Shown here: piece after piece, positions 6,301 to 12,300 of the stretch
Position numbering within the stretch: position 1 is the first letter of the stretch
Layout: the number at the start of each line of letters is the position of its first letter
Assembly (NCBI GenBank): GCA_030549335.1
Contig: CM060197.1
Location: forward strand, 21,030,501-21,094,500
Direction: 5' to 3'
Source: Pontederia crassipes
Lineage: Eukaryota > Streptophyta > Magnoliopsida > Commelinales > Pontederiaceae
DNA length: 64,000 nucleotides
Position numbers and translations under genes: made by a program
The notes under the pieces: model-generated
What the model saw: only the letters and a program-made list of their open reading frames with translations
What the model was told of the DNA's origin: nothing
The model's database searches: none

Positions 6301-9300
6301 AACATGCAATTGAAGGATATCTCAATAAATTTTTTGTGGAAAATAAGGATTTTGTTCTCTCTAATCAATAAAAGAAACCTTATGGTCTCTTATATAGTGG
6401 AGACCAAAGGAGGAATTACATAAAAGGAAAGTACATATTAGGAAAGTAGGAAAAAATCATATGCTGAAAATCAGCTCTCAAACACTCCCCCTCAAACTGG
6501 AGCATAAATATCTATCATGCTCAACTTGGAAACACATTTATCAAACTTTCCCTTAGGAAGTGGCTTAGTGAGGACATCGGTCGTTTGATCACCCGAGGAT
6601 ACATATGATGTGACAATAATTTTTTTCTTAATCATGTCTCTAGTGTAGTGGCAATCAACTTCAACATGTTTTGTCCTTTCATGAAAAACAAGATTATTAG
6701 CTATGAACAAAGCTGTCTGATTATCAGATTTTAATTGCATTGGGAGAGGCACCTCCACTAGAACATCAATCATGACCGATTTCACCCACACTATTTCAGT
6801 AGTGGCTTGAGCCATGGCCCTGTACTCGGACTATGCACTGGATCTGGCAACCACATCCTGTTTCTTACTTCTCCAAGTAACCAGATTAGTTCCCATAAAG
6901 ACACAAAAACCAGTGGTAGATTTTCTATCATTTGGACATCCAGCATAATCTGCATCAGCATAAACAGTGATGTCTAAGCTCTTCCCACTAAGAAAAAACA
7001 GTCCCTTTCCAGGCACTGCTTTTAAATATCAAAGTATCATCATTGCTGCATCCCAATGTACCTTCTTAGGCTTGTCCATAAATTGACTAATCCTGCTTAC
7101 AACAAGAGAAATGTCTGGACGTGTAACAGTGGCATATAAGAGTTTTCCAACATATATTTCTTAGCATCAACATCTTTTGTATCATCATCATAAAGTCGAA
7201 TGTTAGGATCCATTGGCACAGTAGCAGAGCGTGATCCCAACATTCCTGTCTCTTTAAGCAAGTCAGTGACATTTCCTTTGGCACTTAACCAGGCCTCTAC
7301 GATTTCTAGCAAACTCTATTCCAAGAAAATAGCGAAGATCACCAAGATCTTTGGTAACAAAATGTTTTCCAAGCAATGCTTTGGTATAAGAGATGCCCTG
7401 CAAGTCATCACCAGTGACAATAATGTCATCAACATATACGAGAAGCACGACTCTACCACGGGAGTTTTGTTTTTTACAAAAAGTGAATGATCCGTGGTGG
7501 AACGGATGAACCCTCCTTGTTCTACTTTCTCTGATAATTTTTGGAACCAAGCTCTCGGACTTTGCTTTAGGCCATAAATAGCCTTGGTGCAGTTTGCAAA
7601 CCTTGTAAAACTCCTCCTCAGTTTGCAAACCTTGCTTTAGCCACGGGAGGTTGTTTCATGTAAACCTCCTCTTGTAAATCACTATAAAGAAATGCATTCT
7701 TCACATCCAACTGAAAAAGTGGCTAGTCCTTGTTGACTGCGATAGAAAGAAGAATCCGAACTGTGGCCAACCTAGCCACGGGAGAGGTGTCAAAGTAGTC
7801 AACACCATAAGTTTGTGTATATCCTTGAGCCACTAAATGAGCCTTATAGCGCTCAACGGATCCGTTGGACCGATGTTTGATTGTAAACACCCACCTGCAC
7901 CACTAGGAGGTGTTACAAGAGTCCAAATGCCTACTGAAAAGTTGACGTCTCCTCTTGCATAGCTACCTTCCACCTATCGTCATGAAGAGCTTCTTGGTAA
8001 GTTCAAGGTACAGCCACAGTAGAACGCCCGAAAACGAATTGTTGATAGGAAGGAGTGTCTCTCTCCATGGAAAGATGACTAGAGATACAATATGTAGACT
8101 TGCAAAAACGCTTGCCCTTCCTCATAGCTATGGGAACATCTAAATCATTGATGGTTTCATCAAGAGCAGTACCACTGGGAGCAAGAGTAGAGTCATCAAT
8201 CTGACTATGTAAATTTGTCTCTTTGAGTTTCATCACTTGTAGACACATCAACTGTAGTGCTATCTATAAGAATGTTGCGTTCATGATTTACCTCAGGGGT
8301 GATGAGTAATGGCATAGGCGCAAGAGCAGGGTTAGTACAAGAAACAATTTTAGGGCGACGACTATAGGTTTGCTGAAATCTCTGGATGGGCACGTCCATG
8401 GTAGGAATATGAGGAGGTGCTTGAAGATACACCTCAGTGTCTGTATCAGAAGATGTGCGACGAGATCTAGATGAAGTGAAGTAACCTACTGACTCGAAGA
8501 AAGTGACATCAGCACTGACGTAATATCTCCTACTGAAGGGGTCATAGCACCTATAGCCCTTTTGTGTACGAGAATACCCCACAAAGATACACTTGACAGC
8601 CCTAGAAGACAACTTATCTCGACCAGGAGTTAGGATATGAACAAAGGCTGTGCACCCAAAAACTTTGGGAGAAAAAAAAGGGTCTTTATCAGGAAATAGG
8701 ATAGCCGTCTTCCACAAAAAAAAAACCCTAGCCGTCGTCTCCTTCACGCTTCAGCAGGTGTTTCAGATCCACTCTCTTTACCTCATTGCTGTGTGCTTCA
8801 GGAGGTTGTTGCATCTTCTTTTGGCATGTTGCTGTTGCAGAAGGATCCTCTTGGCTGCTTGCTGTCCTCTCAAAGGCTCCCTTCCTCCATCTAAGATGGT
8901 AGATCAAATTAATAACAAGGATAATGTCAAGATGAATGGATCCAACTTTGAGTTGTGGTCCATGCAGTTCATGAGTGCCATGGAGTCTCACGATAAGGAG
9001 CATATTCTGATGGAGTCCGAGCCCACAGTCAAATCTGGGAAATATACTTCCTGGAAAAAGACAACGCCCTTGCGAAAGTCTGGCTAACAGGAACATTATC
9101 TTTAGAGATAGCAAATGATGTCCTACACAAACCCACAACAAAGGCTATGTGGGATTCTCTTACTGCCACATACTCTCAAGCAAAGAACGAGACAAAAATT
9201 CTTCAATTGCATTATGATATCCATCGGACCAGACAAAATGGGCGACCTCTCTATATTTATTACACATCTCTATATGCAATGTTTGAGAAGCTTCATAGTT

Positions 9301-12300
9301 ATTTTCCAATATGTAAGTGTGAAGATCAGAAGGCATATAGGGATATGCTAATGGTAGGGGTCTTTCTCGCTGGACTTGATCTAGTCTACGAGAAATCAAT
9401 TGTTGACTGGTGCAAAAATCCCACCTATTTGAGGAGTGTTTCAGTCGTCTCAGCCGGATAGTTGTTCCTGCAACTCAAAGTTCTGAGACTCCCTCAGCCC
9501 TTGCTGCCACAAGTGGTCGTGGTGGATCTAATGTTGGTCGTGCTCGTGGCACCGGTAGAGGTCGTGGAGGTGGACGTGCAAGCCGACCGCAATACAACTA
9601 TTGCAATAGGTTGGGACACACAGAAGAAACTTGTTGGCAGAAGCATGGGCGCCCTTCCTTTGCGAACAATGTGGCTGAAGATGCCTCATCATCCCAAGAC
9701 ATCAAATACGCAGACCTTCTCTCATAGTTGAAGCATCTGGTATCGAATAATTCTTCTTCCTCAGCTCCCGGAGCTGAAACTGCTGGTCCCTGAGGTACAC
9801 CATTTGCTTGTACCATCAGATCATCTGATGCATCCACAAGGTCGATTGTTGATTCAGGCGCTTCCAGGCACCTTTGTGGAGATAAAAATCAATTTACTTC
9901 TATTAGTAATGTAGCTCCAAGGAGATCTGTTACTTTGGCAGATGGGAGTCACTCTCCAATTAATGGACTTGAAGAGGTTCAACTCACTTCTTCTATACGG
10001 TTGAAGGATGCTACATGCTCCTGCCTTTCCTCTTAGTTTATTATCCGTCAATCAAATATGCAAACAACTCAATTGTCGTGTTATTTTTTATGCCATCTCT
10101 TTTGTGTTTCAGGATATACTACGGGCAGAGTGATTGGTTGTGACCATGAGCAGGATGGCCTCTATAAACTTGAGCAGCATCCATACACTGGTAGTACATC
10201 ATTGCCCTTGAGAACTCCTTCTACCTTCTTATGGCATCTCTGTTTTGGTCACTTGCCACTTCAAAAGCTTCATAGAGTCATTCCACATATCCCTTTGCAG
10301 TCTTCTTTCCAGTGTGATGCTTGTCAACTTGGAAAACACCATCGTAGTTCCTTCCCAAGTCGACAAGGTCGGAGTAGTATTGCAATCTTTGAGATTCTTC
10401 AGTTAGATGTTTGGGGTCCGAGTCGTGTTCTTGATCTACAAGGACACCGTTTTTATCTTGTTATTGTCAATGACTTTAGTTGTCTATCTTGGTTATTTTT
10501 GTTGAAAAATAAATTTGATGTTGGCAATGTGATCAAATCTTTTATTCGTGAAATAAAAACTCAATTTTCTAGCAATGTCAAAATTGTGTGATCTGATACC
10601 ATGTGGAAAATAAGGATTCTGTTCTCTCTAATCAATAAAAGAAACCTTATGGTCTCTTATACAGTGGAGACCAAAGGAGGAATTACATAAAAGAAAAGTA
10701 CATATTAGGAAAGTAGGAAAAAATCATATGCTGAAAATCAGCTCTGAACATTTTTCACACTAGGTATAGCACTCTAAAAGACATTGAGAGGGTGAGGGTC
10801 AACCATTTCATCCATGGGCTAAATCCATGCCCGAGGATGAATGTTATTCATGGAGATCCAACAACTATGGCAAAGGCTATCTCCCTATCTTCCAAGCTTG
10901 CCAGAGAATAAGATGCACAAAAGAAGTTTGACCAAGGAAGGAGTTCCGGAAAGAACAGAAAAAGGATGAAGGCAAGAAGGCCAGAGACTCAACCATGGCA
11001 CGGGCAAAATCACGATGCCTGGTATGATGATGATGATGTATGTATGTTTATGTTTCATGATATTCATGATGATGTATAAGATGTTAAGTCATGTTTCGCA
11101 TATAGAGGCTTGTGTTTAGCGTATGTCATTCATGCATTCCTTTTATCTATGAATGAAGATGCATAAGTATGATTGTAGTACCATGACATTGCATGACCTT
11201 TACATACTCTAATTGAAAACTTGCACCCTGGATCCGTGCAGGAAACTAAGGTTAAGGACGGGTGGCAGCTCAACTCATGACGGCATGATTGCACAATATT
11301 TAAACTTGAATGAGAGTCTCATGATTTATTAGCATTAATGAGTCATTAGACTAATGATGATAGAAATGGTTTTTGAACTCTTGTTCTTAGAAGCTTGAAC
11401 TTTTATGTTTAACTCATGTCTTAAATGTTTTGACTCTTGATGTTTTGTATATTGTTATTTAAAGTCTTCCACTGAAAGTTTTATTTTTATGATATTGAAA
11501 GTCTTCCATTATAATGTATGTGAATCATTTTTGTTAATGATTATGTGATGGCGAACGAGCTAGCACATCGGGAATTCCCCTAATTGCTATCAGTTTTAGG
11601 GTGGATATTTTGGGCGTTACAAAAAATATGGCATTTGAATTATTCTAGCAACACTAGAATGCCAAGTACGAGCATGAATACCTTCATAAAAGAAAGAAAG
11701 AAAAGAAAAGTATTTCAGATGCAAAGTTTTGATTGATTGATAATTTCTCACCTTTTGATTTTGACATTCTAGAAAACTTGAGATATTTGTTTTTCTTTCT
11801 CAAACATTTAGTTCTTTTTCCTATGAAATATTAAAAGTAAGTGCAAATCTTATCAATGTGAGCCAGTTCATTCTAGAATAGCATGCTCAAGGGGAGTCCC
11901 CAGAATCTATTAACTGCTATTTGATTGTTAAATAAATTTTATCAAGTAGGAAAGATATTAATATTTAAACTGAATGATACAGCAGTTTATTGTCATGCCT
12001 AGGAAGCAAGAACACAACATACAGGAATCTTTGCAAAAGATCAAAGTTGAATATGCTACATGTAAAACCGATTTTCTAAGTGTATACATATGAAAATCAC
12101 TTTGTAAGAGGCCTAAATATTCAAGATGTCACATACTCCAGCATTCACAGAATTTCTAATATTATATCCTGAATTGGCATTTATATTCTTGAGCTAAAGA
12201 CACATTGATGGGTCATTATAATTGACATAACAGTTCTTAATCGGTTTCATGTCACAAATACCTACCCATGTACCAGAGAAATAAAAAAGATTTGGGAAAC

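Follow-up and report, generated by a model that had tools for sequence, protein, structure and literature searches.

How did a Copia retrotransposon of Pontederia crassipes come to carry its leader, gag, protease and integrase back to front between long terminal repeats (LTRs) that still run in parallel? The element is a dead, defective copy on the minus strand of the window, that is, of the whole stretch of 64,000 nucleotides analysed here (G000:C15:21030501-21094500, in a genome of 1.13 Gb). Its LTRs, its polypurine tract (PPT), the start of its primer binding site (PBS) and a 5-bp target site duplication (TSD) are present, and the leader-gag-protease-integrase part, at 8702-10598, lies inside it on the plus strand. 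This is probably one Copia insertion in which the inversion was made during reverse transcription, before integration; the positions of the breakpoints favour such a slip over other origins without proving it. The parts of the element are the following.

6330..6334, no strand: left TSD, TTTTT, with one copy at the empty site on contig C16
6335..6484, minus: 3' LTR, TGTTTGAGAGC...TTTTCCACA, 150 bp
6485..6495, minus: PPT, sense TTGAGGGGGAG, abutting the 3' LTR; relatives are arranged alike
6496..8704, minus: RNase H (by eye), reverse transcriptase (RT) and C-terminal integrase remains, decayed, in normal orientation; RVT_2 and SH3_retrovirus; collinear with relatives to 8704
8702..8704, no strand: junction A, inverted leader against C-terminal integrase part, 2-3 nt of microhomology (sense CT or CTA)
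8702..8895, plus: inverted untranslated leader, one leader repeat unit
8896..9731, plus: inverted gag, frameshifted, with a degenerate zinc-knuckle-like stretch (by eye); seen in translations and homologous to relatives
9794..10036, plus: inverted protease region with DSGASRHLC (by eye) and a Pol_BBD match
10037..10598, plus: inverted GAG-pre-integrase domain and start of the integrase core
10592..10598, no strand: junction B, PBS against integrase, 7-nt microhomology TCTGATA (sense TATCAGA)
10592..10601, minus: remaining PBS, TGGTATCAGA, 10 nt of the up to 15 nt that PBSs of the family share with the complement of the host initiator tRNA (tRNA-iMet) 3' end
10602..10750, minus: 5' LTR, 149 bp
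10751..10755, no strand: right TSD, TTTTT

The element has the TG...CA LTRs, tRNA-iMet PBS (cut to 10 nt by the seam), PPT and 5-bp TSD of Ty1/Copia. Eight pieces of open reading frames (ORFs) were searched against Pfam, and four gave a match. RVT_2 and an SH3-like integrase tail were found on the minus strand, Pol_BBD and GAG-pre-integrase on the plus strand. An RVT_2-type RT and a GAG-pre-integrase domain, as in Ty1/Copia, are thus both present (PF07727, E 8.5e-13; PF13976, E 1.7e-9). No Pfam match was obtained for the inverted gag among the ORF pieces given. The Copia gene order, with protease and integrase upstream of RT, is seen in relatives with both halves and is broken in the window copy by the inversion. 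Decay has affected both strands of the flipped copy, and its leader is reversed.

The two LTRs show 97% identity across 147 nt. Three transitions and a small 5'-end change separate them, a divergence of about 2-2.7%. With the rice rate of 1.3e-8 substitutions per site per year, it corresponds, very approximately, to an insertion age of a million years. The insertion was made into a gag-like stretch (by eye) of an older Ty3-like repeat, and over 542 nt the repeats on its two sides show 81% identity. Contig C16 has the target without the element, with 93% identity over the joined flanks and a single TTTTT. Because of the single TTTTT at this empty site and the TSD around the element, the Copia insertion is one integration event.

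A second, different Copia element, near full length and on the plus strand, lies about 1.7 kb away at about 12426-16970 (limits by eye) and has 20 nt of LTR end and PBS in common with the inverted element. Its proximity and the shared 20 nt speak for an origin from two elements of opposite orientation, nested or recombined, which we nevertheless regard as highly improbable. Neither junction has an LTR, the outer LTR pair has one TSD and an empty site, and the flipped part is the leader-gag-integrase of the same family, with 91.5-95.1% identity to relatives. Separate nested elements with their own LTRs at the junctions, which the earlier note had considered, were not seen in the relatives: neither LTRs nor a nested pair were found at the junction positions, and the TSD and empty site argue for one integration.

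Relatives were taken as the 17 best matches to the LTR query in the same genome after the window's own copy, and were compared by blastn. Their alignments break at 8702/8704 and near 10598, so that the relatives place both breakpoints; with the Pfam matches on both strands, this bears out the inversion described in the earlier note. Relatives in normal order, which that note had proposed to look for, were found: the leader-to-integrase pieces are in normal orientation in 14 of the 17, and the window's order is present in none of the 17. The piece of L012 is part of a neighbour sharing L012's LTR. L013, L019 and L024 have no leader-to-integrase piece within the fetched stretch; on the contig of L019, leader and integrase matches lie just beyond that stretch on opposite strands, which is the normal relation. 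The loss of integrase core after 10598 is real and amounts to 253-256 bp, not the roughly 300 bp first estimated, as measured in L014-L018 and L020-L022, the eight relatives whose copy of this region is whole. L009, L010 and L023 were also read at the lost stretch and are altered or align short there.

Half-by-half identities were obtained for 13 of the 17 relatives, several of them covered in part. Without gaps they were 92.0-94.4% for the RT half and 91.5-95.1% for the flipped half, and both halves are about equally distant from the relatives. The distance matrices of the two halves (window and ten relatives) correlate at 0.77. The RT half groups with L017 (support 0.91) and the flipped half with L015 (0.95), in trees whose inner branches are very short; the two halves may have had a common parent or different ones. 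L017 itself carries an internal direct duplication at 2886-6999, in which gag, integrase and the start of RT are repeated within a single family copy.

Further copies of the two junctions were searched for in the genome, and the best candidates only were scored, so the results are not full counts. Among the best 40 of 126 candidates for junction A the window alone spans the seam; the other 39 places are one-sided (32 leader, 7 integrase). Among the best 40 of 115 candidates for junction B it is again only the window that spans the seam, and the other 39 end at or before it. Further inverted copies, for which the earlier note had proposed a search, did not turn up among the scored places, and neither did a second copy with either junction, as would be expected of a self-propagating inverted subfamily. 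The exact LTR-end/PBS pattern occurs at 11 places in the genome. Ten run into the leader of this family or of a near subfamily, two of these being the halves of one element's 43-bp tandem duplication, and the eleventh is the window's, which runs into inverted integrase. Family matches on G000:C8 at 27674585, 27719330, 27764084 and 27807800 have a spacing of 43.7-44.8 kb, which suggests a large tandem segmental array with one Copia copy each.

The repeated nature of the family would be in keeping with an assembly error. Chimeric joins would, however, be expected in long repeats, and the junctions share 7 and 2-3 nt only; junction B moreover has letters that do not occur in the relatives read. 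We give this explanation very little credit.

In the sense direction junction B reads ...CCACA-TGG-TATCAGA-TCACACAATTTT. The PBS reads TATCAGAGC in 10 of 13 relatives, and the integrase TCTGATA is kept in 8 of 11, preceded by GCGT (3), GCAT (3), GTGT (1) or GCGC (1). The window's eighth overlap letter, T, is unlike both the usual PBS and the letters before the relatives' TCTGATA. Since it fits neither side, the safe overlap between PBS and integrase is 7 nt (TATCAGA). The match reported in the earlier note is thus present at the join, though shorter than the 9 nt given there; with the integrase of L009 (GCGCTCTGATA) a 9-nt overlap with a normal PBS is possible. For microhomology of at least 7 nt at random inversion joins, p was 5.2e-4 to 6.2e-4 (within six copies).

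A tRNA scan of two loci gave a host tRNA-Met gene in L057 (anticodon CAT), ending in CCTGGCTCTGATA, and none in L056. With CCA added to this end, the PBS TGGTATCAGAGCCAG is complementary over 15 nt. Leaders were surveyed in 29 further loci; PBS and leader were read together in 23, and the other six were without anchor (4) or PBS (2). All 15 tRNA-complementary nt are present in 14 of the 23 leaders. One locus, L027, lacks LTR end and PBS, and its shortened LTR runs straight into a leader unit. On the LTR side, junction B joins after nt 10 of the PBS. A random break would fall inside the PBS in 15 of about 4450 internal nt, or 0.3% by simple arithmetic. Seven of the 11 copies examined (L015-L018, L020-L022) have their longest Watson-Crick run to the PBS complement at the integrase site, with a tie in L021 and, in L017, at both copies of the duplicated stretch. 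In L021 and L022 the pairing extends over 9 nt up to the primer 3' end with one G-U.

The sense text of junction A is ...GAAGACGGCTATCCTATTTCC. The leader has one unit in 11 and two units in 12 of the 23 surveyed relatives. Provided that the window has kept the PBS-proximal unit, its flipped leader stops, allowing for the 2-3 shared nt, right at the outer edge of the 15-nt PBS. A template switch would put the seams where reverse transcription transfers or stops: junction B clearly lies in the PBS, and for the flipped leader a place at the PBS edge hinges on which unit was kept.

Plus-strand strong-stop DNA of retroelements ends with a copy of the PBS. In the Copia element this DNA, consisting of the LTR and a PBS copy ending about TGGTATCAGA, would have been due to transfer to the PBS complement at the end of the minus-strand DNA. 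It may have annealed wrongly to an internal PBS complement, the TCTGATA of the sense integrase, present either in sense DNA or in a genomic RNA packaged alongside. Extension would then have copied integrase, protease, gag and leader backwards and halted at the tRNA-covered PBS. There the 3' end may have switched, by 2-3 nt of homology, to the minus-strand DNA further down the integrase, and completion would have run through RT, PPT and 3' LTR. Integrase, presumably from other copies, would have inserted the product once with a 5-bp TSD. Two switches, inferred like all of these steps, would explain the observed order.

A single TSD around alike outer LTRs, as found here, is also expected if the inversion took place in the chromosome after integration. 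Breaks in the PBS and in the integrase, with 253-256 bp lost, would then have been followed by flipping of the middle and repair via the 7-nt and 2-3-nt microhomologies. Such an event accommodates the TSD, the LTRs and both microhomologies, does not need a second template and predicts no further copies, which matches the result among the scored places. It leaves unexplained why the break lies within the 15-nt PBS and why its partner is, in seven of the 11 copies, the internal site that best complements the PBS. It requires two joins, as the slip in reverse transcription does, and differs only by the unexplained PBS position. We consider a chromosomal origin unlikely, though clearly the strongest of the alternatives. 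The earlier note had proposed that the PBS/integrase match guided a template switch or an inversion; the inversion and the microhomology stand, and a template switch is favoured by the breakpoint positions, not proved. Two other routes were rejected. Autointegration inversions turn one LTR around, and the window LTRs are parallel. One-step reciprocal recombination between the TATCAGA/TCTGATA inverted repeats does not fit, as junction A is off the integrase repeat and 253-256 bp are gone.

Several observations weigh against the slip in reverse transcription. It is represented by a single copy, and no intermediate was seen; a PBS break and one roughly 256-bp integrase gap, joined by microhomology, would yield the same product. 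The 0.3% figure was worked out after the fact. The CT or CTA shared at junction A does not reach significance (p about 0.17 or 0.06). If the flipped leader derives from the second unit, its end is about 31 nt inside the leader, off the PBS edge; the T that adjoins the seam stands beside the PBS in only two of the 23 relatives (L037, L038) and is usual before a second unit. In four of the 11 copies the PBS complement is matched better elsewhere than at the integrase site: this site is mutated in L010 and L014 and deleted in L023, and L009, with 9 nt there, has a longer match of 11 nt in its fetched stretch, probably within its insertion. In L015 and L016 the last letters of the primer would stay unpaired, and in L022 a second site gives a 9-nt run too, with more G-U. 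The PBS-centred parallels described below could likewise be post-integration deletions or slippage.

Flipping of a 5' part during reverse transcription is known from twin priming of long interspersed element 1 (LINE-1), in which second priming occurs at short homology. The flipped 5' part is alike, but in LINE-1 the primer is genomic target-site DNA, without LTR, PBS or strong-stop DNA. In retroviral vectors, aberrant second strand transfer brings plus-strand strong-stop DNA to an internal site and gives rearranged DNA. This mis-transfer is alike, whereas it is known for deletions and not for an inversion in a plant Copia element. Among human immunodeficiency virus 1 (HIV-1) proviruses, one class with inversion (n=1, 1.3%) and one with inversion plus deletion (n=1, 1.3%) are reported in PMC9278108. 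These are retroelement DNA with inversions as well; they are of a retrovirus, and the likeness is drawn without seam positions. PMC3053390 concerns a chromosomal inversion. In the Triticeae, LTR-retrotransposon complexes in which a rearranged interior lies between alike outer LTRs, with a single TSD, have been explained by aberrant template switching that preceded integration (Sabot and Schulman 2007, PMC1950507). The window element has the same three features. The Triticeae complexes have three LTRs and join two elements in direct order, whereas the window element has two LTRs, an inverted interior and a PBS-anchored seam. By title or abstract, the literature searched gave no LTR retrotransposon whose inverted interior has its seam at the PBS, which, at partial coverage of the literature, is weak evidence of absence. 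Aberrant template switching is an already known kind of event, and the window copy is a clean variant of it, not a new kind of element.

Other rearrangements centred on the PBS occur in the family, and an incomplete census gave the following.

L013, about 5416-5635: Copia-TRIM chimera segment
L024, 2911-3107: Copia-TRIM chimera segment
L062, from 1501: PBS duplication, 43-bp unit
L015, near 5276: PBS duplication, shorter unit

In L013 and L024 the Copia LTR and PBS are followed by the interior and apparently complete 3' LTR of a terminal-repeat retrotransposon in miniature (TRIM) of about 300 bp, and then by the Copia RT tail. The joins are at different points, about 7621 and 8617, and the TSDs are perfect (ACCTG in L013, TATAA in L024). 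Both chimeras are explicable by strong-stop transfer to the PBS of a nested TRIM; deletion between two PBS copies explains them as well. The LTR end and PBS are duplicated in tandem in L015/L030, which are the same copy, and in L062/L063. A common scheme is possible, and we propose it tentatively: a PBS complement on the sense strand, here in the integrase, would lead to an inversion, a second sense PBS, as in the nested TRIM of L013 and L024, to a deletion chimera, and slippage to the PBS duplications of L015 and L062. If the seam was indeed made by strand transfer, it records the priming nucleic acid and the templates present inside a plant virus-like particle. A simple genome-wide screen, reading what follows LTR-PBS in every copy, would then help to tell how far broken elements are due to errors of replication and how far to decay in the chromosome. 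Taken by itself, this locus is of small consequence, as it concerns one dead copy.

The window also holds, at about 21050-21345, a near-intact TRIM or small LTR retrotransposon (SMART)-like element of about 300 bp, of the kind seen in the two chimeras. Its likeness to the SMART element FRetro129, which has 292 bp and 85-bp terminal repeats (PMC3281118), is one of size and structure only. The Copia element FRetro64 has the interior of FRetro129 according to the same source, so sharing of this sort between Copia and TRIM has precedent. In L012, at 1-2910, a single LTR is flanked by the PPT and RT of one element and by the PBS, leader and gag of another; the two form a tandem that shares this LTR, like the three-LTR complexes of PMC1950507.

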